In this document: one piece after another, positions 6,543 to 49,165 of the stretch | Numbering within the stretch: the stretch's first letter is position 1 | Layout of the letters: each line of letters opens with the position of its first letter | Assembly (NCBI RefSeq): GCF_014647755.1 | Contig: NZ_BMPU01000002.1 | Location: 248,001-312,000, forward strand | DNA from: Porphyromonas pasteri | GTDB lineage: Bacteria; Bacteroidota; Bacteroidia; Bacteroidales; Porphyromonadaceae | Length of the DNA stretch: 64,000 nt | Reading direction: 5' to 3' | Translations under genes and position numbers: made by a program | The notes under the pieces: model-generated | Told to the model about the DNA's origin: nothing | The model's database searches: none | Seen by the model: only the letters and a program-made list of their open reading frames with translations

Positions 6543-7068
6543 GAGACCATTGTGCAAGGCCATCGCTTCACAGCTTGCACTTTCCTCTGTCGAACTTCTC
6601 AGCCTAAAGCCTCCGATTTGCGAGGGAACGAAGTCCGAGTAATGAAGAGGTGGGCTTACACAATGTCATCTATAGGTATGGGTGCGTGGGTGAAGCTATA
6701 TAGGATGGCGAAGAAAGCTATATAGCTTTGTGAAGTGACCTATATTAGAGTTGTTGCTCTGCGTAGGGATAAAAGTTGTGGACGAGTGGCAGAAAAGTTT
6801 GGGCTACGTACGTGGTCTTAAAATCTACGTGCGTGGATATTTGGATTTACGTGCCTGGTCTTTAAGACTACGTGCGTAGATGCGGAAAAGCCACTACGAG
6901 AAGGCGCTTTTTTCTTCACGAGAATGATGTTTTCCCCTCCGCTGGATAAGAGGAATACTCGCGATAAGGCGAGGGGCTTGTGTATCTCTTCGGAGAGGTA
7001 TATCGGAGAGCTGGGTGTGCGATGCCTTAGCCCAATCGATAGAGGACAGGACTCCGCGCAACAGTCTC
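6543..7068 (-). mobile_element. MITE-like dispersed repeat, copy A (BrickBuilt-like)
   Basis: The element opens with GAGACCATTGTGC (6543-6555) and closes with GCGCAACAGTCTC (7056-7068), terminal inverted repeats close to the ends of the IS5 element at 39572-40894. Its first ~128 bases resemble the right end of that IS. Inside are 22-bp units with CTATATAG cores at 6696, 6718 and 6740, then ACGTA motifs about 21-22 bases apart, then a unique arm shared with copies at 26673 and 48780 but inverted relative to them. It encodes nothing convincing. The size (526 bp) and lack of a transposase fit a non-autonomous element moved in trans. Confidence 0.75.
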
Positions 7069-7292
7069 CCCTTGGAAAGCTTGCTTTCCTCAGGCAAAAA
7101 GCACTTCAATTCTTTGGAGCATCCTCTCGACGTGCAATGTGGACATCAAAGGAGGCTACTTGTAGCACCTGGAGGAGACCCCTACGATGTCGGTGTGATT
7201 TATCGCCAAGACCCGTGCTTGGTCTCGTGTCTGATGGAGTCTTGGGTGGAAACTGCTGAGCGCAACGTGTGATGGAGCCCTGATCTATCGTA

Positions 7293-7322
7293 TTGTATAT
7301 TCGCAGATTATGTGTACCTTTG
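7293..7322 (+). promoter_or_regulatory. Bacteroidota-type promoter of the str operon
   Basis: TTG at 7293-7295, 19 bases, then TACCTTTG at 7315-7322: an exact match to the Bacteroidota housekeeping promoter TTG-N19-TAnnTTTG. Transcription would start near 7328, giving a leader of about 75 bases before rpsL. The preceding stretch 7069-7292 holds no gene I can support. Confidence 0.88.
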
Positions 7323-7402
7323 TGCACCCGTGGTATATGCCTGTGGTGTGTACTGCGACTACTAAAGAGTAGATAAGTTATTCAAACATAAGTAGAAACG
7401 AA

Positions 7403-7810
7403 ATGCCAACTATTCAACAATTGGTTAGAAAGGGACGTGAGTCACTCGTCGAGAAGGGTAAGAGCCCTGCTCTGGACTCCTGCCCCCAACGCCGAGGCGT
7501 CTGTGTGCGTGTGTACACGACGACCCCTAAGAAGCCAAACTCTGCGATGCGTAAGGTCGCTCGTGTCCGCCTGACGAATGGTAAGGAAGTCAATGCCTAC
7601 ATCCCAGGTGAAGGTCACAACCTGCAGGAGCACAGCATCGTGCTGGTACGTGGTGGTCGTGTAAAGGACCTCCCAGGGGTACGTTATCACATCGTACGTG
7701 GCTCGCTCGATACAGCTGGTGTCAATGGCCGTCTGCAGCGTCGCTCCAAGTATGGTGCTAAGCGTCCTAAGCCCGGTCAGGCAGCTGCTCCAGCAAAGGG
7801 TAAGAAGTAA
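7403..7810 (+). CDS. rpsL: 30S ribosomal protein S12
   Basis: 135 residues, beginning [12 protein letters not shown] and carrying the decoding-centre segments [12 protein letters not shown] (~40-51) and [12 protein letters not shown] (~86-97), where streptomycin-resistance changes arise; both lysines are wild type. It is first gene of the str operon, directly behind the promoter at 7293-7322. The C-terminal extension is rich in Lys, Pro and Ala. A 226-base gap separates it from rpsG. Confidence 0.98.
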
Positions 7811-8036
7811 TTCTCCCTCCGGCGAAAAAAAACTAACCCCCGAGAGCTCGTGCAGCTCTCACCTGGCGAGCCCGCCACATATATATAATGTATAGGGCCG
7901 CCAAGCTAAGAGTCAATAGAACCAAGTTTCTTGAGTTCGTTGGATAGGCTATCAAGGTTGAGTAAATGCTCCAGCGGGAGCGTTGAAGTAAGATCACAGC
8001 ACAACCAATCGACAGAAACGCAATTTACATTAAGCA
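7811..8036 (+). promoter_or_regulatory. Structured rpsL-rpsG intercistronic leader
   Basis: 226 bases without a gene, unusual in an operon whose other gaps are mostly under 45 bases. It contains a 7-bp hairpin GAGAGCT/AGCTCTC (7842-7860), and GCTCC/GGAGC (7969-7982) close to rpsG. In E. coli, S7 regulates its own translation from the S12-S7 gap; an analogous role here is inference only. An internal promoter or processing site is the alternative. Confidence 0.4.
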
Positions 8037-8513
8037 ATGAGAAAAGCTAAACCCAAAAAGAGACAGGTACTCCCTGATCCCGTATTTGGTGACGTTAAGG
8101 TGACGAAGTTCGTTAATCACCTGATGTACGACGGTAAGAAGAGCATCGCCTTCGATATCTTCTACACCGCGCTCGAGATTGTAGGCAAGAAGATCCAGCA
8201 GGAAGACAAGTCTGCCCTGGAGATCTGGAAGGCTGCCCTCGACAACATCACTCCTCAGGTAGAAGTCAAGAGCCGCCGTATCGGTGGTGCTACCTTCCAG
8301 GTGCCTACCGAAATCCGCGCCGAGCGTAAGGAATCTATCTCCATGAAGAATCTCATCCTCTTTGCTCGCAAGCGTGGTGGTAAGACCATGGCAGATAAGC
8401 TTGCTGCAGAGATCGTGGATGCATTCAATAGCCAAGGTGCCGCCTTCAAGCGCAAGGAAGATATGCACCGTATGGCAGAAGCCAACCGCGCATTTGCTCA
8501 CTTCCGATTCTAA
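8037..8513 (+). CDS. rpsG: 30S ribosomal protein S7
   Basis: 158 residues, starting [15 protein letters not shown], with the S7 signature [20 protein letters not shown] near the start (~12-31). It binds the 3' major domain of 16S rRNA and nucleates assembly of the 30S head. It lies between rpsL and fusA, 15 bases before fusA. Length and context are canonical. Confidence 0.98.
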
Positions 8514-8528
8514 GAATAGCAAAAGACA

Positions 8529-10652
8529 ATGGCTGACAACAAACACTTAGAGCTCACGAGAAACATCGGCATCATGGCCCACATCGATGCCGGTAAGACG
8601 ACTACGTCTGAGCGTATCCTCTTTTATACGGGTCTGACCCACAAGATCGGTGAAGTACACGATGGTGGTGCTACGATGGACTGGATGGAGCAGGAGCAGG
8701 AGCGTGGTATCACGATTACCTCCGCTGCTACGACTACCTTCTGGAACTACGACAACACCAAGTACAAGATCAATCTCATCGACACCCCAGGGCACGTTGA
8801 CTTCACTGTCGAAGTAGAGCGCTCGCTCCGTATCCTCGATGGTGCTGTCGCTACGTTCTGTGCTGTCGGTGGTGTACAGCCCCAGAGTGAGACCGTATGG
8901 CGTCAGGCTGACAAGTACCGCGTACCCCGCGTGTGCTACGTCAACAAGATGGACCGCTCCGGTGCTAACTTCTTCGAAGTAGTACGTCAGATCAAGACCA
9001 TCCTCGGTGCTACCCCTTGCCCCATCCAGATCCCCGTCGGTCAGGAAGAAACTTTCCGCGGTGTCGTTGACCTCGTCACGATGAAGGCTCTTGTCTGGGA
9101 TGACGAGACGATGGGTGCTCACTACGACACGATCGATATCCCTGCTGAGCTGCAGGCTGAAGCCGAAGAATGGCGTGATAAGATGCTTGAGACGCTCGCT
9201 GACTGCGATGACGTCCTCATGGAGAAGTACTTCGACGATCCCTCTACGATCACCGAAGACGAGATCCGCGCTGCCCTGCGTAAGGGTACGCTCGCGATGA
9301 AGATCAACCCCATGCTCTGCGGTTCTTCATTCAAGAACAAGGGTGTCCAGACCCTCCTCGACGCTGTCGCAGCTTACCTGCCCAGCCCTATGGATACCCC
9401 CGAAGTCATCGGTACCGACCCCGATGATCCTGAAAAGGAAATCATCCGTAAGGTAGACCCCAGCTCGCCTCTGACGGCTCTGGCGTTCAAGATCGCTACG
9501 GACCCCTATGTAGGTCGTCTCTGCTTCTTCCGCGTGTACGCTGGTGAGCTGCCTGCAGGCTCCTACGTCTACAACTCCCGCTCGGGCAAGAAGGAACGTA
9601 TCTCACGCCTCTTCCAGATGCACTCCAACAAGCAGAACCCTATGGAAGTCATCGGCTGCGGTGACATCGGTGCTGGTGTAGGCTTCAAGGATATCCGTAC
9701 GGGTGACACGCTCTGCGCCGAAGATGCTCCTATCATCCTCGAGTCTATCGACTTCCCCGAGCCCGTTATCGGTATCGCTGTCGAGCCTAAGACGCAGAAG
9801 GATATGGACAAGATGGGTGTCGGTCTGGCTAAGCTCGCCGAAGAAGACCCCACCTTCCGTGTGCAGACCAACGAAGAGACCGGTCAGACCGTCATCAGCG
9901 GTATGGGTGAGCTCCACCTGGAGATCATTATCGACCGTCTGAAGCGCGAATTCAAGGTCGAAGCTAACCAGGGTAAGCCCCAGGTATCTTATAAGGAAGC
10001 TATCACGAAGCCCGTTGAGCTCCGTGAAGTCTACAAGAAGCAGACGGGTGGTCGCGGTAAGTTCGCTGACATCATCGTCCGTGTAGAGCCCGCCGACGAA
10101 GGCTTCGAAGGCGATCTGCAGTTCGTAGACGAAGTCAAGGGCGGTAACGTGCCTAAGGAATTCATCCCCTCTGTACAGAAGGGCTTCCAGAAGGCTATGA
10201 CCAACGGTGTCCTCGCAGGCTATGCGCTGGATAAGCTGAAGGTGACGCTCCTCGACGGTTCGTTCCACCCCGTGGACTCTGACCAGCTCTCCTTCGAGAT
10301 CTGTGCTATCCAGGCATTCAAGAATGCTGCTGCTCAGGCAGGTCCCGTTCTCCTCGAGCCTATCATGAAGCTCGAAGTCGATACGCCTGAAGAAAGCATG
10401 GGTGACGTGATCGGTGACCTCAACAAGCGTCGCGGTCAGGTAGAAGGTATGGACAGCACTCCTTCGGGTGCACGCCTTGTGAAGGCTAAGGTGCCTCTGG
10501 CAGAGATGTTCGGTTACGTGACGAGCCTCCGTACGATCACTTCCGGTCGTGCTACCTCGTCGATGACCTTCTCTCACTACGAAGCAGTATCCTCTTCTAT
10601 CGCTCGCCAGGTCCTCGAGGAAGTAGGCGGCCGTGTAGATCTCATCAAGTAA
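8529..10652 (+). CDS. fusA: Translation elongation factor G
   Basis: 707 residues. GTPase motifs: AHIDAGKTT (G1, ~17-25), the switch I block with RGITI, DTPGH (G3, ~87) and NKMD (G4, ~141). Domains II-V follow, including the GRGKFAD region of domain IV. EF-G drives translocation with GTP hydrolysis. It is followed by rpsJ after 19 bases with no tuf between them, the usual Bacteroidota arrangement. Codon use is strongly biased, fitting high expression. Confidence 0.98.
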
Positions 10653-10671
10653 ATAGTACTATAACAGAGAT

Positions 10672-10977: not shown

Positions 10978-10996
10978 TTATTAATACGAAACTGAA

Positions 10997-12247: not shown

Positions 12248-12266
12248 TCAATAGGAGAAACGAATC

Positions 12267-12560: not shown

Positions 12561-12568
12561 GTTCAACA

Positions 12569-13393: not shown

Positions 13394-13413
13394 CTGATTA
13401 ATCAAAAAGAATT

Positions 13414-17095: not shown

Positions 17096-17365
17096 ATGGC
17101 AAAGGAATCAATGAAGGCACGCGAAGTAAAGCGTGCAAAGCTCGTCGCTAAGTATGCTGCCAAGCGTGCTCAGCTCAAGGCCGAAGGGAACTACGAAGCA
17201 CTTCAGGCTCTGCCTAAGAACGCTTCTCCCGTACGTCTGCACAACCGCTGCAGCATGACGGGTCGTCCCAAGGGCTATATGCGCCAGTTCGGCATCTCTC
17301 GTATCCAGTTCCGTGAGATGGCTTCTGCCGGTCTCATCCCTGGGGTGAAGAAGGCCAGCTGGTAA
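17096..17365 (+). CDS. rpsN: 30S ribosomal protein S14, zinc-independent form
   Basis: 89 residues. The signature [20 protein letters not shown] (~43-62) has one Cys only, so this is the form without a zinc ribbon. This is the last ribosomal gene of the block: a terminator follows at 17390 and rpsH-rplF-rplR-rpsE-rpmD-rplO-secY, which normally continue the spc operon, are not in the window. Confidence 0.97.
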
Positions 17366-17432: not shown

Positions 17433-17516
17433 CTTTGCCCCCAGTGCTCATTCTGTATCTCTGTGGCATCACCACGCGTGTGGTGCTCAGAAGCACTACT
17501 GCATAGCGGAATGAAG

Positions 17517-17660
17517 CTATATAGCTTCGTCGTCGGACCAATACTGGTTTGTCATCGGAGCAGTATTGGTTCACGCTCGTTTCTATATAGGAATGCCCAG
17601 CGATCAGTATAGCTTTCCTCTCCCCACACTATAGCTCCGCCTCTTTGGGCAATATTGCTT
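17517..17660 (+). repeat. 22-bp phased repeat array, seven units
   Basis: Units start at 17517, 17539, 17561, 17583, 17605, 17627 and 17650 (steps of 22, last 23). Each has an 8-9 base near-palindromic core (CTATATAG, CAATACTGG, CAGTATTGG, CAGTATAG, CACTATAG, CAATATTG) and a variable 11-13-base remainder. The first 24 bases are identical to 27060-27083 inside repeat copy B. No gene is seen between rpsN and 17677. Confidence 0.85.
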
Positions 17661-17914: not shown

Positions 17915-18904
17915 ATGTCTTCCCTATCGACCGAAAGACAGCCTGCTACCGCTCGAGCATCTGTCTCCTCGCTCTACGTACTGAAGGCCTTGCTGGCATT
18001 CTTCGTCGTCACGTGCCATGCTCCCATCCTACTTCCTTGGGTGAATATACCAGGGTTGGCGACCGAACTCTTCTTCGCTATCACGGGTTACTTCCTCTAT
18101 TCGGAGGATCTCGGGAAGATCCAGTCGCGTATATGGAAGTCAATCAAGAAGGTTATCCCCATCATGATCTTCCTGCAGCTTCTTTATATCCCCTTGGCAC
18201 CACCAGACTGGAAGTCACCTGTGGTCCTCTTTAACTGGGCCTTTATGGGGATTGCGAACTTTGATGCGGTACACTTGTGGTATCTGACCTCTCTACTTTA
18301 TTCCTTAATCACCTTCTCCCTGTTTATACGCTTCACCAAGGGAAAATATATCCCAGTACTCTTCTTGTGTGTACTAGGCTGGATGATATTGGGTGATTAT
18401 CGATATTTCATCGATGGAAAGGATGGATCTATTTATCTATTCAACTTCATTAGCCGTGCCCTGCCTTTCCTTGCGATGGGCTATTGGATACGTGCTAATG
18501 AGTCAGTGCTTCTCCAGCGCAAATGGCTGAATATTTACATCGTCCTCTGGGTCTTATCATGCTCAGAGAATCTGCTCATCCATACCTTATCTCAGGGACA
18601 AGCCGACGGCGGCTTTGTGGAGATTTTCCCACTGCGATTTGCTTTCTTCATGCTGATCATCTCATATAAGGAGCTCGGTCAGGGTACGTGGCTCGAGACC
18701 ATTGGGGACAAGTACTCGGGGAATATCTACTACTATCATATGGCTGTGATTATCGGATGGAAGGCTCTTAATCCACATAGTCCATTGCTTAATCAGATTT
18801 ATGACTATGCCGGTGCCTTCGTCGTCTTCTTCATTAGTCTGCTTATTGCGATACTCATTGAGCGGTGTTCCTTGTTATTTAAGAGATTTCTTTCACGTAG
18901 CTAG
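17915..18904 (+). CDS. Acyltransferase-3 family membrane protein, first of a tandem pair
   Basis: 329 residues, about ten hydrophobic segments. Family marks: LYVLKALLAFFVVTCHAPIL near the N-terminus (the conserved His at about residue 35), FFAITGYFLYS, HLWYLTSLLYSL (~110-121) and the C-terminal YSGNIYYYHMAVIIGW (~268-283). Acyltransferase-3 proteins O-acetylate or otherwise acylate surface glycans in the inner membrane. It is followed 17 bases later by a clear paralogue, so the pair arose by tandem duplication. The substrate is unknown. Confidence 0.82.
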   Translation: MSSLSTERQPATARASVSSLYVLKALLAFFVVTCHAPILLPWVNIPGLATELFFAITGYFLYSEDLGKIQSRIWKSIKKVIPIMIFLQLLYIPLAPPDWKSPVVLFNWAFMGIANFDAVHLWYLTSLLYSLITFSLFIRFTKGKYIPVLFLCVLGWMILGDYRYFIDGKDGSIYLFNFISRALPFLAMGYWIRANESVLLQRKWLNIYIVLWVLSCSENLLIHTLSQGQADGGFVEIFPLRFAFFMLIISYKELGQGTWLETIGDKYSGNIYYYHMAVIIGWKALNPHSPLLNQIYDYAGAFVVFFISLLIAILIERCSLLFKRFLSRS

Positions 18905-18921
18905 AATTAGTGAATTAACGT

Positions 18922-19923
18922 ATGACACAAGTTACTCCCTCTATTTCGAATGGTGAGGGCATGTCTCAGGCGATCTCGTCCCTCTATGTACTGAAAGCTC
19001 TACTCGCTTTTGCGGTGGTGGTATCCCATTCTCCTTTATTACTCCCTTGGGTGCGAATCCCAGGGTTTATGGTGGAGCTCTTCTTCTCTATTACAGGGTA
19101 CTTCCTCTATGCATCAGACCTTGGTAAAGTGCATTCGCGCATTTGGAAATCGGTCAAGAAAGTCGTCCCTATCATCATCGTCCTACAACTCTTTTATTCC
19201 CTAATCTATCCACCAAATCTTGGGCCAATCAGCGTCTCGTACATGCGCTATGTACAGTGGCTTTTCTTGGGCTTTAATAACTATGTCACGGGACACCTGT
19301 GGTACCTGTCGGCTGTGCTCTTTGGGTTGCTCTTCTTTGGGGGATATCTGCGGATTATGAAGGGGCGCCGGGTGCCTTTGCTCTTCCTCTTGATCCTGCT
19401 ATGGGTATTCATTGGCCCCTACCGCATGCTGCTCTTTGGGAAGCCAGAGTCGGCCTTTGTGTTTAACTTCCTGACCCGTGCAGTGCCCTTCCTTGCGATG
19501 GGCTACTGGGTGAGAGCCAATGAAACTCGCTTGCTGAGCTATCGCTGGATCAATATTTTCTTCCTTGTGCTCACCCTCATGGGAATTGAATGCCTAGTGA
19601 CGTGGTGCTTGAGTGGCTATACATATGCTGCTAGTGCTATTGCGCTGTTCCCCATGCCGTTCGCTGCGTTCATGCTGATGCTCTCCTATAAGAGTCTGGG
19701 GCAGGGTACGTGGCTGGAGACTATTGGGGAGAAGTATTCGGGGAACATCTACTACTTCCATATCGCTGTGATCATCGGATGGAAGGCACTCAATGCACAT
19801 AGCCCACTTCTCAGCGAGATCTACGAATACGGAGGTGCCTTCATCGTCTTCTTCATTAGTCTCGGGATCGCTTGGCTTGTTGTCAAGCTACAGGATCTCA
19901 TCGGCTACCACGTGTTGAAGTAA
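18922..19923 (+). CDS. Acyltransferase-3 family membrane protein, second of the pair
   Basis: 333 residues, alignable end to end with the preceding protein: LYVLKALLAFAVVVSHSPLL, FFSITGYFLY, HLWYLSAVLFGL and YSGNIYYFHIAVIIGW all recur at matching positions, and TWLETIG precedes the last block in both. Catalytic His equivalents are kept, so both copies should be active. The best guess is two related acyl modifications of one surface polysaccharide. The gene ends at the terminator shared with dnaA. Confidence 0.82.
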   Translation: MTQVTPSISNGEGMSQAISSLYVLKALLAFAVVVSHSPLLLPWVRIPGFMVELFFSITGYFLYASDLGKVHSRIWKSVKKVVPIIIVLQLFYSLIYPPNLGPISVSYMRYVQWLFLGFNNYVTGHLWYLSAVLFGLLFFGGYLRIMKGRRVPLLFLLILLWVFIGPYRMLLFGKPESAFVFNFLTRAVPFLAMGYWVRANETRLLSYRWINIFFLVLTLMGIECLVTWCLSGYTYAASAIALFPMPFAAFMLMLSYKSLGQGTWLETIGEKYSGNIYYFHIAVIIGWKALNAHSPLLSEIYEYGGAFIVFFISLGIAWLVVKLQDLIGYHVLK

Positions 19924-26468: not shown

Positions 26469-26643
26469 CGCTTTTTACCGCGGAATAAAGAAAGAAAACG
26501 GCAATTGCACACTATTCATTTCAGTGTGCTTGTTCTCTGCTGTTTGTTCGCTCCAGAGGAAGGGGGGAGTCCCTCCCTGCTGGCGGGTCGCTGCGAAGCT
26601 TCTGATAAGGGATCTATCTTCCTCTATGGATGGGGCAAAGCAA

Positions 26644-27237
26644 CCTATATTGGTCGGCGGGCTGACCTATATGAGACGGTTGCGGCAGAGTCCTGCTCTC
26701 TATGTATTGTGCTAAGGCATCGCACGCCCAGCTCCCCGATACACCTCTCCGAAGTGATACGCACGCCCCTCGCCTTATCGCGCGTATTCCTCTTATTCAG
26801 CGGAGGGAAAAGCATCGTTCTCGTGAAGAAAAAAGCACCTTCACGTAGTGGTTTTCCTCTGTCTATGCACGTAGTCTTAAAGACCAAGCACGTAAATCCA
26901 AATATCCACGTACGTAGATTTATCGTCCACACACGTAGCCTAAACTTATCTGCCACTCGTCCACAACTTTTCTCCCTACGCGGACCAACAACCTAATATA
27001 GGTCATTTCACAAAGCTATATAGCTTTCTTCGCCATCCTATATAGGTCGCCATCGCGACCTATATAGCTTCGTCGTCGGACCAGTATAGGTCAGCCCGCC
27101 GACCAATATAGGTCGGAGCAATGACCAATAGTCATTTGGACTCGGTTCAGTAGTTGTTTGGGGTGCGAACGAATAGTGGTTTGATCCCCGAACCCATAGT
27201 GGTTTGAGTGCAGACCAATAGTTGTCTGCGGATCGGC
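26644..27237 (+). mobile_element. MITE-like dispersed repeat, copy B, with 11-unit 22-bp array
   Basis: Two units precede (26644, 26666), the second running into a GAGACGGTTGCG terminus at 26673 similar to the IS5 ends. An arm to about 26830 is shared with copies A (inverted) and C. ACGTA motifs follow at 26843, 26869, 26890, 26912 and 26933. Then 22-bp units start at 26994, 27016, 27038, 27060, 27082, 27104, 27126, 27148, 27171, 27194 and 27216. No matching downstream terminus was found, so the right border is uncertain. 27238-27442 holds no feature I can support. Confidence 0.75.
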
Positions 27238-27442: not shown

Positions 27443-28795
27443 ATGAAACAGAAAAAACTATCTCGGTTGGTCGCCCTCTGTGGGGTGTCCATGACCCTGC
27501 TTGCGGGCGTGATCTCCTGTAAGCAAGAAGCTCCTACTCCTGCATCAAAGCAAGAAGCTCCCTCAAAGGAAGCTGCCACGAGTGTTCAGCTCAGTGAACA
27601 GCAGGCTCGTATTTACGCTACTATGTTCCTCAAGCATGAGGATAGTATCTCTCGTCCTCAAAACTTGAGATCTATCGCTGTACCACGCGAGATTTCGGAT
27701 GTTAATTACTACGTGGAGGGGCGTGATACGCTACTGTATGCAATTAACTATAGAGATAATGGAGGATTCGTGATCCTGTCAGGTGATAATAGCTCGTTCC
27801 CGATTGTTGCTCATTCAGATAAGGGGCATCTTGTCCTTTCTGAAGTGTCGTCGGAAAATCCTCTGCATGGAGCACTTCAGGGCTACATAGATAAAGCGAA
27901 AAAGCATATCAATGACCCCAGTCGAGTTAACTCCCCCTACTTCGAAAAGTGGAAGGACTTGGGAAAGAAGGACTATGAATATGAAATAGTCCCGGAGAAC
28001 GCTGCGCCTGTTGCAGGGATGCGATCAACTCGAGAATATTCATCTGGCAAGCCAGCGATATACCCGCATACGGGGAAAGACCTTAATTGGTCGCAAGCTG
28101 GGAACTTTAATTATGCTGCAAAGGATGGGAGCTTAATCGGATGCCCTGCAGTTGCTATAGGGATGTTGCTCTACGATTGTGAGCATCGTATCAATGGTAG
28201 CTACACTTCTGTAACTCCAAGTGTTCGCTATGATGCCAAGTTTGCCACTGCAAATAACACCCAAGGAAGAGAGGTCTCGAAGGTTCTTCGTCAGATAGCA
28301 GATAGCATTCCCGGCTATGGCTGGAGTCCATATGTTAGTGGAGCAAGTCCTGATGCGATCATTAAAGGATTGCGTAAGCTCGGCTTTCCAGATGCAGACC
28401 GTGTGAATTATGATATTGAGACACTCTATAAGAACCTTTCGTTTAAGGCTCGTGTCTATGGTGATCAGGAGGCTGATTGCCAAAGAGGAGTTCTTTTGAT
28501 AGGCTACAGGAATGGCACTGGATATGATGGTCATATCTGGTTCTGTGATGGATATTATGAACAGGCTTATAAGGTCACGAAGAAGTTCTTATTCATCAAG
28601 CTTAAGACGTGGACAGAATATGAGGATCGCATCTATATGAACTGGGGGTGGGGACCCGATGGAGGAAACGGGTGGTACTCTGCAACCGATGATGTATGGT
28701 TGGATGAATTTCAACGCCCCCGTCTACAAAAGGATAATCCTCAAATTGTGGTTGGGCTTCATCGCTATCATACTCCAAGGGTTCCTGCTTTATGA
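27443..28795 (+). CDS. C10-family (streptopain-like) cysteine peptidase lipoprotein
   Basis: 450 residues. A lipoprotein signal ends LLAGVISC (Cys26). A pro-region with a Spi-like look (QARIYATMFLKH, then NGGFVILSGDN) covers about 45-190. The catalytic domain has GCPAVAIG with nucleophile Cys234, GHIWFCDGYY with His364 and the NWGWGPDGGNGWY segment (~400-412). These match the streptopain/PrtT/Bfp family of secreted cysteine peptidases. It is probably surface-anchored and activated by removal of the pro-region. It overlaps the next lipoprotein gene by 4 bases. Host-protein degradation is a likely role from the family, not shown here. Confidence 0.85.
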   Translation: MKQKKLSRLVALCGVSMTLLAGVISCKQEAPTPASKQEAPSKEAATSVQLSEQQARIYATMFLKHEDSISRPQNLRSIAVPREISDVNYYVEGRDTLLYAINYRDNGGFVILSGDNSSFPIVAHSDKGHLVLSEVSSENPLHGALQGYIDKAKKHINDPSRVNSPYFEKWKDLGKKDYEYEIVPENAAPVAGMRSTREYSSGKPAIYPHTGKDLNWSQAGNFNYAAKDGSLIGCPAVAIGMLLYDCEHRINGSYTSVTPSVRYDAKFATANNTQGREVSKVLRQIADSIPGYGWSPYVSGASPDAIIKGLRKLGFPDADRVNYDIETLYKNLSFKARVYGDQEADCQRGVLLIGYRNGTGYDGHIWFCDGYYEQAYKVTKKFLFIKLKTWTEYEDRIYMNWGWGPDGGNGWYSATDDVWLDEFQRPRLQKDNPQIVVGLHRYHTPRVPAL

Positions 28796-39460: not shown

Positions 39461-39521
39461 GTATATGGAGTGGGGGAGTGGATCGGGAGGATATGGCTCT
39501 CTGCGGGGGAGTAATGTGAAC

Positions 39522-39571
39522 CTATATTGGTCGCTGAGCTGACCTATATAGGTCACGACGGCGACCTATAT
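39522..39571 (+). repeat. 22-bp phased array, left part, interrupted by the IS
   Basis: Units start at 39522, 39544 and 39566 (22-base steps) with CTATATTGG and CTATATAGG cores. The third core, CTATAT, is cut by the IS5 element and resumes at 40895. Confidence 0.8.
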
Positions 39572-39666
39572 GAGACCATTGCACGGCACTGGAGGGGACC
39601 CAGGTCTATTCCATTTCCGTATATTTCTGATATTTAGTACCTTCACAGCAAAAACAGTCGTATCGC

Positions 39667-40749
39667 TTGCCAACCAAACAAACCGAATCCGCGCCGAGCT
39701 TCCTACAAGTTTATACGCAGGTGCGCCGCGACCGCATGAAGCACTCGTTCCTTCGACAGATCAGCGCTTGCGTTGACTGGCGAGGTATTCGCACACTACT
39801 CAACAAGAAGTATACAAAGACCCAGAACGCCACCGGCAATCCAGCCTATGATGCCTTGATGATGTTCAAGATCCTACTGCTTCAGACCTGGTACGGCCTG
39901 AGTGATTACGAAGTCGAAGAACGGATCAATGACTCCCTCCTCTTCAGCGAATTCCTCCTCTTGGATATGGGCCTTCCAGCTCCAGACCACAGCACCATCT
40001 GTCGCTTTCGCGCTGAACTGACACGCTTGGGGATTATGGATAAGCTCCTTCGCGAGCTGAATAAGCAGTTCAAAAAGCACGGGATTAGTCGTATTGACCA
40101 AGGGGCTATCGTGGATGCGAGCATTGTGGATAGCCCGCACGCTCCCGATGGAAGTATCCTCATCGAAGTGGCCGACGACCGAGAAGACTTGCGCACCGAA
40201 GAAGAGCAAGCGCAAGAGCAGGCTTATCAGTATGAGCTAAAAAGTCGCAGACCAGGGGTGGATACGGAAGCTCGTTGGGTGCGCAAAGGCAGGCACTATC
40301 GCTACGGATATAAAAAGCACGTGCTGACCGATGGGCAAGGGTTGGTGGAGAGCATAATTACCACGCCAGCCAATTGTGCCGACACGGTGGTATTGCCCGA
40401 GCTGATAGAGAAGGCAGAGCTTACACAGGGTATTAGTGTCCTTGCCGATAAAGGGTATTGTAGCAAGAAGAACTCGGCTTGTCTGCTTGAGCACGGCTTG
40501 ATTGATGGAATTATGCTCAAGGCGCAGAAGGGGATGAAGCTTACAGAGCGACAACGTGAACTGAATAACGCCATCAGCAAAATGCGCTGTTTGATAGAGC
40601 GCACCTTCGGGAGTATCCGAAGGTGGTTTTCAGGAGGGCGATGTCGTTACCGAGGGCTTGAGCGAACGCATACACAGAATATCTTGGAAGCTATGGCATA
40701 CAATCTGAAGCGTATGCCTGGGCTTCTTGTGCTCCAGAGTGCCAAATAG
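39667..40749 (+). CDS. IS5-family DDE transposase
   Basis: 360 residues if the TTG at 39667 is used; the first ATG is 39736. DDE landmarks: VDASIVDSPH (first Asp), SVLADKGYC (second Asp) and LIERTFGSIRRWFSGG (Glu), with NKKYTKTQNATGNPAYDALM near the N-terminus. Related Porphyromonas transposases begin MAYQ-x-K; here the bases ahead of 39667 read as ATCGCTTGCCAA, which looks like a damaged ATG-GCT-TAC-CAA start with a lost base. The protein may therefore be made from TTG or not at all. Confidence 0.88.
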   Translation: MPTKQTESAPSFLQVYTQVRRDRMKHSFLRQISACVDWRGIRTLLNKKYTKTQNATGNPAYDALMMFKILLLQTWYGLSDYEVEERINDSLLFSEFLLLDMGLPAPDHSTICRFRAELTRLGIMDKLLRELNKQFKKHGISRIDQGAIVDASIVDSPHAPDGSILIEVADDREDLRTEEEQAQEQAYQYELKSRRPGVDTEARWVRKGRHYRYGYKKHVLTDGQGLVESIITTPANCADTVVLPELIEKAELTQGISVLADKGYCSKKNSACLLEHGLIDGIMLKAQKGMKLTERQRELNNAISKMRCLIERTFGSIRRWFSGGRCRYRGLERTHTQNILEAMAYNLKRMPGLLVLQSAK

Positions 40750-40758
40750 CCCAGAAAA

Positions 40759-40795
40759 GCCCCCTCTCGGGAGGATGATCCTCCCGAGAGGGGGC
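40759..40795 (+). terminator. Palindromic hairpin after the transposase gene
   Basis: A perfect inverted repeat (GCCCCCTCTCGGGAGGAT and its complement) 10 bases after the transposase stop, inside the IS; it can terminate transposase mRNA and block read-through. Confidence 0.75.
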
Positions 40796-40894
40796 AAGGG
40801 AGAGAGACAGCCATCCCACTTCTCAGCCTAAAGACTCCGATTTTCGAGGCAAGAAGGTACGTGCAATGAAGAGGTGGCCTTGCGCAATGGTCTC

Positions 40895-41094
40895 TATATA
40901 GCTTCGTGTGACGACCAATATAGGTCAGCCCAGCGACCAATATAGGTCGGAGCAATGACCAATAGTCGTTTGATCTCAGACCAGTATTCATCCGTAGGCG
41001 AACGAGTAGTTGTTCGCATACGAAACGAATAGTGGTTTGACCCCGAAACGAGTAGTTGTTCTATGTGCAGACCAGTAGTTGTTTGCGCCTTGAC
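40895..41094 (+). repeat. 22-bp phased array, right part, after the IS
   Basis: Units at 40894/40895, 40916, 40938, 40960, 40982, 41004, 41027, 41050 and 41073. Cores change along the array from CTATATAG and CAATATAGG to CAGTATTC, GAGTAGTTG and GAATAGTGG; steps change from 22 to 23 bases at the far end. The order parallels the array at 26994-27237. 41095-41200 holds nothing recognisable. Confidence 0.8.
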
Positions 41095-41200
41095 TTACCG
41101 AGCTTCATTCGCGAAGCCTATAAATAATGGAGTCGTATAGTGCAGGGGGAGGGGAGTGGCACGGCTATCTGACGGGCTTTCCCGATAGGGGGAAAGTAAC

Positions 41201-41300
41201 CAGTACTGGTCGCACGACGAACCAGTACTGGTCACCATAGTCAAGCAGTACTGGTCACTCGCGCGACCAGTACTGCTCGCTTCACTGATCAGTACTGGTT
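41201..41300 (+). repeat. 22-bp phased array of perfect CCAGTACTGG palindromes
   Basis: Five units start at 41201, 41223, 41246, 41268 and 41290. The core CAGTACTGG is nearly invariant and usually preceded by C, giving a perfect 10-base palindrome; the fourth has CAGTACTGC. The remaining 11-12 bases differ. This is the most homogeneous array here and so perhaps the youngest. 41301-41523 shows no gene. Confidence 0.85.
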
Positions 41301-41553: not shown

Positions 41554-41600
41554 CACTCGCAACTGAATGCTACTCATATGGTAGGCGGTTGACATTGGGA

Positions 41601-41672
41601 GGCCCATTCGTCTATCGGTTAGGACGCAAGATTTTCATTCTTGAAAGGGGGGTTCGATTCCCCCATGGGCTA
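41601..41672 (+). tRNA. tRNA-Glu (UUC), CCA not encoded
   Basis: Cloverleaf: acceptor GGCCCAT with ATGGGCT (one G-T at the end), anticodon stem CAAGA/TCTTG with loop TTTTCAT giving anticodon TTC, T arm GGGGG-TTCGATT-CCCCC. The discriminator A is followed by CGA, so CCA is added after transcription. 28 bases before rpsT. Confidence 0.95.
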
Positions 41673-41699
41673 CGATAACAACAAAAAGAAAAGATACAA

Positions 41700-41954: not shown

Positions 41955-42022
41955 GAGTAGCCACTCTCCCCATCTGCTGTCAAGCGCCTCCCCTCGGAGA
42001 AGGTGTGAGACAGAATTCAGGC

Positions 42023-42097
42023 GGCCCCTTCGTCTATCGGTTAGGACGCAAGATTTTCATTCTTGAAAGGGGGGTTCGATTCCCCCAGGGGCTACCA
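42023..42097 (+). tRNA. tRNA-Glu (UUC), CCA encoded
   Basis: Same D, anticodon and T arms as the copy at 41601, base for base, but the acceptor stem is GGCCCCT/AGGGGCT, with compensating changes in both strands, and CCA follows the discriminator (42095-42097). Confidence 0.95.
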
Positions 42098-42793: not shown

Positions 42794-42877
42794 TAGAAGC
42801 TCTATGCCCTACCAGCGGCGGGGCTACTACGGCTGCCCCTCGGGAGAGCTGCATCAAAAAGTATAATCGATAGACGA

Positions 42878-43684: not shown

Positions 43685-45108
43685 TGAAGCTTGCTTCAGC
43701 TCTATATGTAGGCCTCCTCTCGCTGGGCCTTGCGACGCTCTCCACCTCCTGCACCGAGGACAACCTCTCGGGTATCGGTGAGAGCATCCAGCCTAACCGT
43801 GACAAGGTCACCGGGCTTGCGACGACGATCACCTTCGACGCCACCACGGTAGCCACCCCTACACTCTATACCGATGGTACGACTTCGCTCCTCGGTACGC
43901 TCATCGACGAGACGGGCTCGACCGTCACGGGTGAGTTCATCAAGCAGATCCGTACTGCCGAAGGGGTTGCCTTTGAGGATGCTGACAACGCCCAGCTGAC
44001 TATTGACTCGGTCTACTTCCGCATCTATTCGGACCGCACCGAGGGGAATGCAGATGCTCAGATTAAGGTCAACGTCTACAAGCTCGCTCAGCCCGTCACC
44101 ACGGCTGGTACCTCGAGCCAGACGCTCGGCCAGTACCGCACGGGCGCGACGCTCTTGGGCTCTGCTACTATCCAGCCCAGCGCTGGGACGCTCATCCAGC
44201 AGAACTCCACGATGCGCTACTTCACCATCCCTCTGGATGTGAGCCTCGGGAAGCACTTCTTCGATGCGACGCGCTCGTCGACGCTGAAGAGTGCCTTCAA
44301 CTCGCAGTCGCGCTTTGACCGCGAGATCTTCCCTGGCTTCTACGTCGCACCTGTCACGGGTCGTGGCTTCCTCCTCGAGGTCACGGAGGTCGCTCTCATG
44401 ATCCACTACAGTGTGCCCAACAAGGAGAAGCCCGCCGAGCGCGTGAAGTACGTGAAGACCTTCGTCGATACGAAGCTTACCTCACGCCTGAACGCTCTGA
44501 GCAGCGGCGACATCTCGAGCCTCACGGCTCCGTCTACGGAGTACAGCTATGTCAAGGGCCCTGCTGGCGTGACGACGAAGTACACGCTCTCGGTGAGCGA
44601 GCTGCAGAAGCTCCTCGCTTCCGCGCCTAAGCCCACCACGACGCCTGTGCCCAGCGACTTCATCGGCCGCGCTTGGATGCTCGCTGATGCGAACTTCTCC
44701 GTCAAGGTCAATAGCCCTGAAGGGCAGCGCACGAACCAGCCCGACTACCTCCTGCTCCTCCCCTCAGACAAGGTGACGGAGTTCTTCTCGGCCGATGTGC
44801 AGGCCATCCAGTCGGGTAAGTCGTACCTCTCGAAGAAGTATGCCGCCAGCGACAAGGCGTATAAGTTCAACAACATCGCCCGCATCGTCACGGAGCATCT
44901 GGCAAAGTACGCCACCTACTCCGCCGCTACGGGCTGGACGATCTCCACGCCACTGGAGCTGAGCCTCGTACCTGTATCGGTGACGTCATCGGGCTCCAAT
45001 GGCTCTGCAAGCATCGCTGAGCTCATCCGTCCGAGCTTCCTCCGCCTCTCAAAGGCTACCACGGACCGCCAGGTGAGCTTCGTGAGCGTACAGCTCCAGC
45101 AGCAGTAA
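43681..45108 (+). CDS. DUF4270 lipoprotein
   Basis: 475 residues with lipoprotein signal ending LSTSC (Cys24). The opening CTEDNLSGIGESIQP and the following FDATTVATPTLYTDGTTSLLG block fit DUF4270, a surface-lipoprotein family of Bacteroidota with unknown function. It overlaps the GT5-like gene (ATGA). Beta-rich throughout, Ser/Thr/Ala-rich. Confidence 0.78.
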   Translation: MMKLASALYVGLLSLGLATLSTSCTEDNLSGIGESIQPNRDKVTGLATTITFDATTVATPTLYTDGTTSLLGTLIDETGSTVTGEFIKQIRTAEGVAFEDADNAQLTIDSVYFRIYSDRTEGNADAQIKVNVYKLAQPVTTAGTSSQTLGQYRTGATLLGSATIQPSAGTLIQQNSTMRYFTIPLDVSLGKHFFDATRSSTLKSAFNSQSRFDREIFPGFYVAPVTGRGFLLEVTEVALMIHYSVPNKEKPAERVKYVKTFVDTKLTSRLNALSSGDISSLTAPSTEYSYVKGPAGVTTKYTLSVSELQKLLASAPKPTTTPVPSDFIGRAWMLADANFSVKVNSPEGQRTNQPDYLLLLPSDKVTEFFSADVQAIQSGKSYLSKKYAASDKAYKFNNIARIVTEHLAKYATYSAATGWTISTPLELSLVPVSVTSSGSNGSASIAELIRPSFLRLSKATTDRQVSFVSVQLQQQ

Positions 45109-45118
45109 ACCCCTATCT

Positions 45119-45177
45119 GACGCCCACAGAGAACAGGCCTCGTCACCCCGAGAACTCCCTGCTCTTTGTGGGCGTCA
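45119..45177 (+). terminator. Long stem-loop after the DUF4270 gene
   Basis: TGACGCCCACA pairs with TGTGGGCGTCA at the far end, and CAGG with CCTG inside, leaving a loop of about 20 bases. Possible terminator, without a clear T-run. Confidence 0.5.
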
Positions 45178-45214
45178 CTCTATACACTACCTAAGTACCT
45201 ATACGACTACGTCT

Positions 45215-46480
45215 ATGCAGTCCTCCATCAAGCTCCGCCTGACGGTGATGAACTTCCTCCAGTTTGCAGTCTGGGGGGCCTACCTTACTTCTATGGGGCG
45301 CTACCTCGGTACCGCAGGCTTCGGCTCCGAGATCGGGAACTTCTACGCCATGCAAGGTCTCGTGTCGCTCTTCATGCCTGCTCTCATGGGTATCGTCGCT
45401 GACCGCTGGATCCCAGCACAGCGCCTCTTAGGGGTCTGCCATATGTTGGCAGGGATGCTGATGCTTGGCGTCTTCCTCTACACGCAGACCGATGCGCCCT
45501 CTTATCCCAGCCTCTTCGCGCTCTACTCGCTGAGTGTCGCCTTCTATATGCCGACGCTGGCGCTGAGCAACTCCGTCGCCTACACCTCGCTCGATCAGGC
45601 CGGGCTGGATCTGGTGAAGAGCTTCCCTCCGATCCGTGTCTTCGGTACGGTGGGCTTCATCTGCACGATGATCGCGGTGAGCCTGCTCGGTCTCGAGGCT
45701 ACGAGTGGGCAGTTCGCTGTCTCGGCTATCATCAGCCTCGTCCTGGCAGTCTACGCGCAGACGCTACCCAACTGCCCCACGGCTCCCAAGGGGCAGAGCA
45801 AGAGCCTCGTCGAAGCCCTTGGCCTACGTGCCTTCGTGCTCTTCAAGCAGCGTAAGATGGCGCTCTTCTTCATCTTCTCGATGCTCCTCGGTGTCAGCCT
45901 GCAGATCACCAATGGCTTTGCTAACCCCTTCATCAGCACCTTCGGCGAGATCCCTGCTTATGCTGATACCTTCGGCGTGAAGTACGCGAATATCCTCATC
46001 TCCCTCTCGCAGCTCTCCGAGACGCTCTGTATCCTGCTCATCCCCTTCGCGCTGCGTCGCTTCGGTATCCGCCGTGTGATGCTCATCGCTATGGTGGCGT
46101 GGGTCCTGCGCTTTGCCCTCCTCGGTCTTGGTAACCCAGGTAGCGGCGTATGGCTCTTCCTGCTGAGTATGATCGTCTACGGGGTGGCCTTCGACTTCTT
46201 CAATGTGTCGGGCTCGCTCTTCGTGGACAAGGAGACTGACCCCTCGATTCGCTCCAGTGCCCAAGGCCTCTTCATGATCATGACCAATGGTATCGGTGCG
46301 ACGCTCGGCTCGCTCGGTGCGCAGGCGGTGATCAATCACTTCGTCCACACGGAGCATGACACGACGGCGATCCTCGCTGGCTGGAGCATGAGCTGGTACA
46401 TCTTCGCTGCCTACGCTGCTGTCGTAGCAGTGCTCTTCGCGCTGCTCTTCCGCTACAATACCACCACCGAGGCGAAGTAG
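45215..46480 (+). CDS. NupG-like nucleoside:H+ symporter (MFS)
   Basis: 421 residues, about 12 membrane helices. The opening LRLTVMNFLQFAVWGAYLTS and PTLALSNSVAYTSL (~109-122), KSFPPIRVFGTVGFI (~130-144) and FNVSGSLFVDKE (~330-341) are hallmarks of the nucleoside permease branch of MFS. It imports purine/pyrimidine nucleosides. Single-gene unit, with a GT4 gene 46 bases later. Confidence 0.87.
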   Translation: MQSSIKLRLTVMNFLQFAVWGAYLTSMGRYLGTAGFGSEIGNFYAMQGLVSLFMPALMGIVADRWIPAQRLLGVCHMLAGMLMLGVFLYTQTDAPSYPSLFALYSLSVAFYMPTLALSNSVAYTSLDQAGLDLVKSFPPIRVFGTVGFICTMIAVSLLGLEATSGQFAVSAIISLVLAVYAQTLPNCPTAPKGQSKSLVEALGLRAFVLFKQRKMALFFIFSMLLGVSLQITNGFANPFISTFGEIPAYADTFGVKYANILISLSQLSETLCILLIPFALRRFGIRRVMLIAMVAWVLRFALLGLGNPGSGVWLFLLSMIVYGVAFDFFNVSGSLFVDKETDPSIRSSAQGLFMIMTNGIGATLGSLGAQAVINHFVHTEHDTTAILAGWSMSWYIFAAYAAVVAVLFALLFRYNTTTEAK

Positions 46481-46526
46481 TGCACCCGTCCTCGTCCCTT
46501 ATCCCTCTTGTAGCCTCACTGAGCCG

Positions 46527-47669
46527 ATGAATATCGCCTTCGATGCCAAGCGCATTACACACAATGCTACCGGCCTCGGGAACTACAGCCGCTTCGTGCT
46601 CGACACGCTCACGGAGTTCCGCCCAGAGAACCGCTATCTGCTCTTCTCGCCCTCTACGGGTGACCCCTCGCTCTACAAGCGCTTGCTGTCCAATCGCTCG
46701 GTGCGGCTCATCACGCCCCATCGTGCACTGGCCTTCGCTGGGGGCAATCTCTGGCGCAACTTCTCCGTGGCCTCGCGCTGCCGTACGGAGCAGGTCGACC
46801 TCTTCCACGGGCTGACCAACGAGCTCCCCATCGGGCTGTACAATGCCCAGCGCATAGGTACGGTCGTCACCATGCACGACTTGGCCTTCATCCGCTACCC
46901 ACAGTTCTACAAGCCCATTGACCGCCTGCTTTACCGCAAGAAGTACGGCGCTTCGGCCCGTCATGCCGACCACGTCATCACCGTGAGTGACCAGACGCGT
47001 CGTGATGTCATCGATATCTTCGGCATCGAGGAGGAGCGTGTGACGACCGTCTATCAGGGTTGCTCCGAAGCCTTCGCTGCGGTGACGCCCGAGGATGTCG
47101 TAGTGGCACGTCAGGCACTGAACCTCCCCGAGCGCTATATCCTCTTCGTCGGGAGTATCGAGGAGCGCAAGAACCTCGCTCTCATCGTCGAGGCACTTGC
47201 TCAGCTTCAGGACAAGGACATTCACCTCGTGGCTGTCGGTCGTAAGACACCCTATGTGAATACCGTCGTCGACAGCGCCCGCCGCTTGGGAGTCCTCTCC
47301 CGCCTGCACCTCTTGCATGGGGTCGGATCGGCGATGCTCCCTGGCATCTATGCCGGAGCGAAGGTCTTCGTCTACCCCTCGCGCTTCGAGGGCTTTGGTA
47401 TCCCACTTATCGAAGCACTGAATGCCGGCGTACCCGTCATCGGTGCTACGGGCTCCTGTCTGGAGGAAGCTGGTGGCCCCAGCAGCCTCTATACCGACCC
47501 CAGTGACGCCACGATGCTCGCCAGCATGATCGACCGCGTCCTCATCGACATCTCCCTGCGTCAGAAGATGATCACCGACGGCCGCGAGTACGTGGAGCGC
47601 TTCACGCCGAAGCGCCTTGCTCGGGACCTCTCCGCTGTGTATGAGAACGTCCTCCTCACCTACGAATAA
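46527..47669 (+). CDS. GT4-family glycosyltransferase
   Basis: 380 residues, GT-B fold. N-terminal [20 protein letters not shown], then [15 protein letters not shown] (~113-127), [11 protein letters not shown] (~207-217) and the sugar-nucleotide motif [15 protein letters not shown] (E-x7-E, ~287-301). Retaining transferase, probably for surface polysaccharide or LPS mannose-type residues; acceptor unknown. The pth gene starts 16 bases after its end. Confidence 0.87.
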
Positions 47670-47685
47670 CCCCTTACCTCACTCA

Positions 47686-48249
47686 ATGAAATACCTCATC
47701 GTAGGCCTCGGCAATATCGGGGCTGAATACGATATGACCCGCCACAACATCGGCTTCCGTGTAGCCGATGCCATCGCAGCCCGTCTGGGTGTGCGCTTCG
47801 AGACGAAGCGCTACGGCGATGTCGCTATGGGTCGTGCTAAGAGCGCGCAGATCGTCCTGCTCAAGCCCTCCACCTATATGAACCTCAGCGGCGAAGCTGT
47901 CCGCTACTGGATGAGCACGGAGAAGATCCCCATCGAGCGCGTGCTGGTCATCGTCGATGACCTCGCTCTGCCCTTCGGTGCGCTCCGCCTCAAGGGCAAG
48001 GGAAGTGACGCGGGTCACAATGGGCTGAAGAATATCGCCCAGCTCCTCGGCTCGCAGTCCTATGCCCGTCTGCGCTTCGGTATCGGGAATGACTTCCCAC
48101 AAGGCGCACAAATAAACTATGTCCTCGGGCGTTTCTCCCCTGAGGAAGAGGCGCAGATGCCTGAGCGTCTGGAGACCTTCGTCGACGCCTCCATCGCCTT
48201 CTGCCTGGAGGGGATCGCCTCTACGATGAACCGCTTCAACGCTAAGTAA
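47686..48249 (+). CDS. pth: Peptidyl-tRNA hydrolase
   Basis: 187 residues from [12 protein letters not shown]; the upstream frame from 47617 would overlap the glycosyltransferase gene. Active-site features: TRHNIGF with the catalytic His (~20-22), [10 protein letters not shown] (~64-73), [10 protein letters not shown] (~93-102) and [12 protein letters not shown] (~109-120). Recycles peptidyl-tRNA. Confidence 0.96.
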
Positions 48250-48297
48250 TCGCCCCCGTCGTCCAACTATTCATCACCTAAATACAACCTCTTACTC

Positions 48298-48675
48298 ATG
48301 AAGCAAGTCATTGCCACCACCAAGGCACCAGCCGCTATCGGCCCTTACAGTCAGGCTATCCTCGTCGGAGATATGCTCTTCGCATCGGGTCAGCTCGGTA
48401 TTGATCCCGCTACGGGCGAGTTCCCCGAAGGCGTCACCGCTCAGACCGAGCAGGTCTTCCGCAACATCCACGCGATCCTCGCTGAAGCTGGCTTCACCAT
48501 CGATCAGGTCGTCAAGACCACGTGCTTCCTCGCTGATATGGGCGACTTCGCTGCTATGAACGCTGTCTATGAGAAGCAGTTCACAGGCACCTTCCCCGCA
48601 CGCTCTGCCGTAGCTGTGAAGACGCTGCCTAAGAACGGCCTCGTAGAGATCGAGATCATCGCACACCGCGGCTAA
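48298..48675 (+). CDS. ridA: RidA family 2-iminobutanoate/2-iminopropanoate deaminase
   Basis: 125 residues. KAPAAIGPYSQAI (~10-22), FASGQLGIDP (~30-39) and PARSAVAVKTLPK (with the substrate-binding Arg, ~102-114), EIEIIA at the end. Trimeric enzyme that clears reactive enamines from PLP enzymes. It follows pth by 48 bases. Confidence 0.95.
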   Translation: MKQVIATTKAPAAIGPYSQAILVGDMLFASGQLGIDPATGEFPEGVTAQTEQVFRNIHAILAEAGFTIDQVVKTTCFLADMGDFAAMNAVYEKQFTGTFPARSAVAVKTLPKNGLVEIEIIAHRG

Positions 48676-48703
48676 GCCACTGCGGTAAGATCCTGCCACG
48701 CAT

Positions 48704-48754
48704 AAGCCCCACGGCTTCCCTCGCGAAGGGAGGCCGTGGGGCTTCTCTTTTCTC
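48704..48754 (+). terminator. Terminator after ridA
   Basis: An almost perfect 18-bp stem AAGCCCCACGGC to its complement ending at 48744, followed by CTCTTTTCTC. Confidence 0.9.
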
Positions 48755-48779
48755 TCCTCCCAGCACGCCCTCTGAATGC

Positions 48780-49165
48780 GATCTTCTGCAGAATCCTGTC
48801 CTCTATATTTAGAGGGCTAAGGTATCGCACGCCCAGCTCCCCGATACGCCTCTCCGAAGTGAGACGCAAGCCCTTCGCCTTATCGTGAGTATTCCTCTTA
48901 TTCAGCGCGGGGAAAAGTGCCCTTCTCGCGAAGGGAAAAGAGCCTTCACGTAGTGGCTTTTCCGCATCTATGCACGTAGTCTTAAAGACCAGGCACGTCA
49001 GTCCAAATATCCACGTACGTAGATATTAGATCCACGTACGTAGCCCAAACTTATCTACCACTCGTCCGCAACTTTTATCCCTACGCGGAGCAGCAACCTA
49101 ATAGAGGTCACTTCAAAAAGCTATATAGCTTTCTTCACCATCCTATATAGGTCGATATCACCCCC
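48780..49165 (+). mobile_element. MITE-like dispersed repeat, copy C
   Basis: Same orientation and order as copy B: a degenerate left end (GATCTTCTGCAGAATCCTGTCC), the GGCTAAGGTATCGCACGCCC arm, ACGTA motifs around 48945-49045, then 22-bp units at 49099, 49121 and 49143. The array is short (three units). No coding capacity. It ends about 80 bases before the promoter of the next gene. Confidence 0.7.

Follow-up and report, generated by a model that had tools for sequence, protein, structure and literature searches.

Intergenic palindrome arrays phased at two helical turns in Porphyromonas pasteri: candidate binding-site clusters for a dimeric protein

What are the rows of short palindromes, repeated about every 22 bp, that lie between genes in a 64,000-nucleotide stretch of the Porphyromonas pasteri genome? 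The stretch (hereafter the window) is C2:248001-312000 of the source genome, G000, which comprises 2.17 Mb in nine contigs. An earlier note, made from the sequence alone, had placed such arrays at six intergenic loci, and arrays were present at or near every one of them once the coordinates had been corrected. Two findings go beyond that note: the five-unit array at 41198-41300 is a design repeated across the genome, and the geometry of the arrays, not their sequence, recurs in other Bacteroidales. On balance we favor the view that the arrays are binding-site clusters for one or more sequence-specific dimeric DNA-binding proteins, most likely organizing or insulating the chromosome.

The 22-bp spacing, which the earlier note had proposed to check by a genome scan, is far above chance. 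At up to two mismatches, RACCWRTAYWGGTY matched the window 32 times, whereas 100 dinucleotide shuffles gave 3.97 matches on average and never more than 9. Exact copies of RACCWRTAYWGGTY number 380 in the 2.17-Mb genome (1 for a reversed control), and pairs spaced 22 bp apart at up to three mismatches number 524 (0 for the control). The 168 matches in C1:1-400000, a region with 55% GC, have start distances (up to 140 bp) that are nearly all 22/23, 44/45, 66/67 or 88/89, all others totaling 7. Identical intergenic 6-mers in C1:1-800000 recurred 2415 times at lag 22, 248 times at lag 21 and 269 times at lag 23; outside the ranges 21-23 and 43-45, the count per lag was 18-95. Genes were called with a codon-usage script, and gap counts are therefore approximate. 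The same 800 kb holds 71 arrays: 37 of a TATATA type (type A), 26 of an AGTACT type (type B), seven of a TAGT type (type C) and one other. The rule that every core keeps TA at positions 4-5 is true of the four cores originally named, while other species also show ACGT, GCGC and TGCA centers.

Type B has a fixed layout, and its representative in the window is the following.

41198..41300, plus strand: type-B array of five 14-bp palindromes, consensus RACCAGTACTGGTY, in steps of 22, 23, 22 and 22 bp, spanning 103 bp (genome match at C2:289202).

The earlier description of this array as a palindrome type was borne out, and it is one of about 65 alike in the genome. Five units were found in 24 of the 26 type-B arrays of C1:1-800000, with a span of exactly 103 bp in 23; three of the 24 five-unit chains also held a sixth, weaker unit, which was trimmed off. 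The single 23-bp step is the second or the third, and falls at an AT-rich 9-bp spacer. Genome-wide, the five-unit pattern gave 72 matches (39 forward, 33 reverse), or 65 arrays (36 forward, 29 reverse) after seven off-register second matches had been removed by eye. These include small groups of near-identical copies, clustered on C2 or near contig ends, which look like segmental duplicates.

Between loci, units are 87% identical and spacers 39%, with a spacer maximum of 64% (253 pairs of 23 arrays). Since the spacers are unrelated at this level, type-B arrays are not recent copies of each other, and the only flank common to them is a soft A-rich edge, an A tract outside the first unit. Conserved units with unconserved spacers are as would be expected of purifying selection on sites. 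Plain minisatellites arising from replication slippage would account for the tandem, unit-sized steps and for the long series of weaker units in some rows. Slippage, however, duplicates a whole 22-bp unit, yet here the palindromes are alike and the spacers different, and one palindrome occurs at dozens of loci. A period of 21-23 bp also recurs in unrelated sequences with other periods nearly absent, in a test (below) that omits units at least 85% alike and so disfavors fresh minisatellites. This origin seems very improbable.

The way in which units vary is equally constrained. Of 120 units in the 24 type-B arrays, 53 match the consensus; 65 depart from it in a single half and 2 in both halves, where 11.1 were expected, and none of 5000 permutations gave a count as low. 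Units had been admitted at up to three mismatches, so one change per half would have been counted. Deviation is least in the outer units and greatest in the middle unit, and nearly every unit retains one perfect half-site. In the relative G016, at least one GGG half was kept in 34 of 35 matched units, the search pattern itself restricting the variants visible. Complementary double changes within units were absent from all 120, and no covariation was detected across 23 type-B arrays (permutation p of 0.58-0.95 for six spacer pairs and 0.74-0.997 for five unit pairs). The one-half rule and the absence of type-B covariation together speak for a dimeric protein that reads double-stranded DNA, in preference to hairpins.

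Dyad-symmetric sites on one helix face, each constrained by half-site, are the features of a dimer-operator array. Multi-site protein binding on one face of the helix, as the earlier note proposed, is thus the reading that the 21-23-bp lock, the intact half-site and the missing type-B covariation support best, while the interpretation as a whole has gained partial support. From these patterns we infer a protein, cooperative binding and an architectural role, in the nucleoid or at boundaries. Each 14-bp palindrome would be one dimer site, and sites two helical turns (21-23 bp) apart would place neighboring dimers on one side of the DNA and in contact. The result would be a multi-dimer nucleoprotein complex, which in type B would put five dimers on 103 bp.

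We further considered the genomic setting of type B. The 26 arrays lie in 16 codirectional, eight divergent and two convergent gaps, and these classes hold 62, 24 and 14% of intergenic bases. A role as terminators of convergent gaps was not adopted, the gap classes tracking the available intergenic bases. At 21 of the 28 gene starts that face a type-B array, a predicted -7 box, TAnnTTTG, separates the array from the start codon, an arrangement that would leave the array outside a transcript begun at that box. Neighboring genes (UMP kinase, TypA, MutL, transketolase, dihydroorotase, cytidylate kinase and others) share no common pathway, and a single-pathway regulon was discarded because the neighbors are unrelated. 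As the arrays are intergenic, mostly upstream of the facing promoter box and beside unrelated housekeeping genes, their role is most likely to organize or insulate and not to switch a pathway.

Array orientation was also compared with replication polarity. The orientation of 19 of 25 type-B arrays on C1 matches the two GC-skew arms, two of the 25 being located outside the 800 kb measured, with 12 plus and 3 minus to the left of the skew maximum and 3 and 7 to the right; with local 20-kb skew, 16 of 23 agree. On C2-C4, agreement was 10 of 20 without near-identical copies and 14 of 24 with them. A polarity of the kind of FtsK-orienting polar sequences (KOPS), hinted at by C1, was not adopted, C2-C4 being at chance (10/20).

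Does the geometry extend beyond this genome? Chains restricted to palindromes were too insensitive for odd-centered or asymmetric units and were replaced by a triplet test, which scores intergenic gaps holding one 6-mer three times at a given step (or that step plus one) in units less than 85% alike. In G000, 63 and 64 of 220 gaps scored at steps 21 and 22, and 0-2 at other steps from 16 to 29. The Bacteroidales set comprised 76 loci around typA (Parabacteroides, Bacteroides, Prevotellaceae, Tannerellaceae and others); four of 80 loci were set aside as Porphyromonas-like (L262, L263, L280 and L283) and two titled Porphyromonadaceae were kept. Here, 19 and 16 of 493 gaps scored at steps 21 and 22 and four at step 20, with 0-2 at each of the remaining steps between 14 and 40. 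Against this pattern, the triplet test gave only 0-1 of 33-38 gaps in G006, G010 and G017, despite visible phased arrays in G006. Examples are GAACATATGTTC four times at L302, CGCAGATATCTCCG-type units four times, in two places, at L288, and AAGTATNNATACTT three times at L276. At L288:11824-12033, a GATATC array lies between inverted repeats (CCCGTTGGCGGAATTA type), and inspection by eye shows the right-hand motif again at that locus's second array. Palindromicity of 21 arrays from this set was moderate (0.70 versus 0.54 in controls), with 3 of 21 at 0.8 or above, and by eye several of the 21 resemble ordinary repeats. The corresponding counts at 0.8 or above were 0 of 17 arrays in G016 and 0 of 15 in G002. 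In an E. coli control, 0 of 29 gaps had the triplet geometry, a sample too small to show absence outside Bacteroidales.

Within the family, the words themselves are replaced. The 22-bp RACCWRTAYWGGTY pair was found once in G002, twice in G007 and not at all in the other 35 of 37 family genomes, and the type-B pair pattern had no match in a contig collection that left out the source genome. Relatives hold other repeated words at 21-23 bp: CTGAGGGATATCCCTCAG in G016 and CGACCTACSGTAGGTCG in G012, both at the same step, and GAGTTAYSRTAACTC in G002 at 23 bp. G006 has 22-bp arrays of GATYTATATA-type palindromes (L136-L140, C1:2000001-2100000), and G001 has paired blocks of CCACGTGG, with six units where complete. 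The composite elements of G001 (L156-L160, C1:400001-500000) have a pair of 21-bp direct repeats in the middle, preceded by three CCACGTGG units spaced 22 bp apart and followed by three more; by eye, their spacers are complementary. In G012 (L126-L130, C21:1-100000), N runs fall within phased arrays at three places. Upstream of pyrH, arrays with a different word occur in each of G000, G012 and G016, that of G012 being recognized by eye with a score of only 5, and the arms GACC and GGTC are, also by eye, common to the G000 and G012 words. Positional conservation of arrays was rejected, the typA and mutL arrays of G000 having no counterpart in most relatives. The 13 conserved gaps with called orthologs that are shared over five genomes hold no array, too few to judge.

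If the same geometry is served by other words across the Bacteroidales, a change of site from one species to the next would have to be matched by a change of protein. An order-wide chromosome-organizing system, in which a fast-evolving dimeric protein would occupy two-turn palindrome arrays of conserved geometry while the word is replaced between species, is a tentative proposal that we consider possible.

Several observations weigh against dimer sites with an architectural role. The word is nearly missing from relatives, and turnover of that kind is not usual for a regulator whose targets number about 65 arrays. Array positions are shared between species only in part: on an uncalibrated scale, phased repeats scored at least 10 upstream of pyrH in 10 of 26 genomes, with corresponding counts of 7 of 26 for typA and 5 of 24 for mutL. 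No sequence-specific regulator family was found among 35 distinct neighbor proteins scanned, three of which had no family match in the libraries searched. In the nine type-A arrays, complementarity was indicated between the first and fourth spacers (p 0.03) and the second and fourth units (p 0.004), uncorrected for 12 tests. Finally, as RNA the window array folds strongly relative to shuffles on both strands (z of -7.4 and -8.9), and 33 of 52 type-B array edges, with their A/T tract, scored as terminator-like.

The last two results would suit bidirectional terminators, in which RNA hairpins would form between adjacent palindromes and the A/T tracts beside them would supply a U-run on either strand. 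The A tract in the edge consensus points the same way, as does a loose scan: where genes end toward a type-B array, just eight of 19 3′ ends had another terminator-like hairpin before the array. That scan, however, is positive with the same frequency between arrays and gene starts (12 of 29 stretches). In type B, compensatory change is missing between units or spacers as well as within units, hairpins do not need helical phasing, and the shares of divergent (8/26) and convergent (2/26) gaps lie near those of intergenic bases. Position alone is insufficient against termination, because 33 of 52 edges score and the eight of 19 3′ ends are no more than the 12 of 29 stretches. Rfam covariance models matched two tRNAs only in the window and nothing in three other 20-kb stretches with type-B arrays. 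Taken together, we regard termination as quite improbable.

The type-A complementarity bears on a further alternative, since complementary outer spacers and second and fourth units would make some type-A arrays long inverted repeats. The arrays could be selfish repeats without host function, that is, bodies of small mobile elements such as miniature inverted-repeat transposable elements (MITEs), with lone arrays as old copies. The other arrays of the window and the mobile DNA around them are as follows.

6543..7068, strand not assigned: MITE-like element with ends GAGACCATTG and CAACAGTCTC and CCCTT on both sides, holding a 22-bp array and a 21-bp ACGTACGT array.
6693..6750, plus strand: array of three CTATATAG-type units in 22-bp steps (22, 22), within the MITE-like element.
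6805..6880, plus strand: TACGT[AG]CGT[AG]G (ACGTACGT) units about 21 bp apart, in the MITE-like element (period 21 at 6804-6877).
17514..17571, plus strand: three clear units in steps of 22 and 22, with degenerate units then running on to about 17650.
26642..26672, plus strand: start of a TATATA-type array (two units), the second core interrupted by a GAGACGGTTG (GAGAC-type) end at 26673.
26991..27226, plus strand: eleven-unit array passing from CTATATAG-type to CAATAGT/GAGTAGT-type units, in seven steps of 22 and then 23, 23 and 22, one unit having four mismatches.
39519..39571, plus strand: left portion of a TATATA-type array, with AACCTATATTGGTC, GACCTATATAGGTC and half of a third unit.
39572..40894, plus strand: insertion sequence (IS) with a DDE transposase open reading frame (ORF) at 39667-40749 (DDE_Tnp_1; PF01609, PF05598) and ends GAGACCATTG and CAATGGTCTC.
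40895..41083, plus strand: right portion of the 39519 array, running into CAATAGT/GAGTAGT-type units in steps of 22 and later 23.
49096..49153, plus strand: three CTATATAG-type units in steps of 22 and 22, adjoining a copy of the MITE-like flank (48801-49100).

All six loci of the earlier note are thus represented; the two-unit array at 26642-26672 and the ACGTACGT row at 6805-6880 had been overlooked. The stretch 39522-41094 had been taken as a single array, and this did not hold: the IS at 39572-40894 lies within one unit, where it interrupts a TATATA core and has TATAT on either side; beyond it the 22-bp register is maintained. The arrays near 6696, 26994 and 49099 share a flanking repeat of about 300 bp, with inverted copies of the MITE-like flank at 26685 (308 nt) and 48803 (295 nt), and by their sequence these three belong to MITE-like DNA. 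In C1 outside called genes and in the whole window, 7 of 37 end-like sequences abut TATAT or ATATA. IS and MITE-like ends in the cores indicate that arrays are insertion sites, some of them carried in MITE-like DNA. A relic of the MITE-like leader (71%, complementary) lies at 61389-61597, with ACGTACGT units at 61457 and 61500.

MITEs typically form families confined to one species, which counts toward selfish repeats. So do the IS-like ends of the MITE-like repeat around the three window arrays, with 5-bp flanking repeats in the complete copy, the complementary arms of type-A arrays, the L288 array between inverted repeats, and a published precedent, BrickBuilt. This MITE minisatellite of P. 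gingivalis and P. gulae is described as a 23-nt array whose copy number ranges from 1 to 22.8; it has 19 loci, and a leader or tail accompanies most of them (PMC4596501). The likeness noted earlier holds as far as an intergenic tandem array, a 23-bp step and a conserved first and variable second part are concerned; BrickBuilt has IS5-type ends, the MITE-like element at 6543-7068 has ends that resemble them, and in the window the resemblance is confined to the MITE context of three arrays. It fails at the repeat itself: the BrickBuilt 23-mer AGAYCATARTATCCTCTCRTRTG has no match in the window (up to three mismatches) or in G000 (up to two), compared with 112 forward matches in G006, alongside its separate 22-bp arrays, and 12 in G008 of the same genus. 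Type B further differs in having five units at about 65 loci without leader- or tail-like flanks, and palindromes and a half-site rule are not among the BrickBuilt features in that accessible text.

Type B also sits poorly with a selfish origin. Its arrays appear to show no sign of carriage by mobile elements, no IS-like ends being seen at them in the edge alignment, and their flanks are unshared beyond the soft A-rich edge while their spacers are unrelated. Unit number, spacing and one perfect half-site are kept, all of which decay would be expected to erode in an old copy, and the near-identical copies, clustered on one contig or near contig ends, resemble segmental duplication. A selfish origin of the arrays in general is, in our judgment, unlikely.

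Among other known systems, plasmid iterons of about 22 bp are several direct sites two turns apart and bound by protein; these and multi-operator clusters differ from the present case, in which dozens of copies stand chromosome-wide beside unrelated genes. A-tracts in helical phase, which have been connected with nucleoid proteins (PMC3940949), are alike in having features spaced by helical turns; here, specific palindromes at two turns form discrete arrays and not a diffuse 10-11-bp periodicity. Repetitive extragenic palindromes (REPs) are described as 20-40 bp long and mostly tagged GTAG or CGTC (PMC3733652), and with their bacterial interspersed mosaic elements (BIMEs) and REP-associated tyrosine transposases (RAYTs) are likewise many, intergenic, species-specific and of unclear or multiple roles (PMC3733652, PMC6006769). 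Movement of the arrays as REPs by a RAYT (Y1) transposase would explain the many intergenic palindromic copies with species-specific words. The Y1 transposase PF01797, however, has no match in G000 (99.8% complete, nine contigs), a control search in known genomes being positive in 5 of 14, and a 22-bp phasing locked to two helical turns is not among the REP features in the accessible part of PMC3733652. We find this scarcely credible. Tandem direct repeats of 22 and 23 nt had, according to the BrickBuilt paper, earlier been reported from strain W83, their positions not being given (PMC4596501). Beyond these and BrickBuilt, no account of such arrays was found in the literature searched, in part as partial texts and with most subscription journals outside coverage.

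Other features of the window lie near the arrays. The 17514..17571 array is flanked by the ribosomal S14 gene (end at 17365) and an ORF with an acyltransferase domain. Nearby, a tandem duplication pair in 17915-19923 (215 nt, 80% identity, at 18626/19648) involves neighboring ORFs, one with an acyltransferase domain; a second pair lies in 59892-61142 (267 nt, 78% identity, at 60186/60876). An ORF at 27443-28795 with Spi inhibitor and C10 peptidase domains directly follows the eleven-unit array and was not scored as coding by codon-usage gene calling. The two tRNA genes, at 41598-41673 and 42020-42095, are 422 bp apart and 96% identical, with the anticodon TTC (Glu) assigned by eye.

To our knowledge, little is known of nucleoid proteins and boundaries in Bacteroidales. 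If dimer-site arrays are what these repeats represent, they would give context to the IS and MITE insertions found in TATATA cores. They would also offer a directly testable set of sites in this order and an instance in which binding words are replaced while the architecture is conserved. Bacteroidales, a major order in the gut and mouth, would then possess a widespread non-coding system invisible to similarity searches, as only its geometry is conserved.

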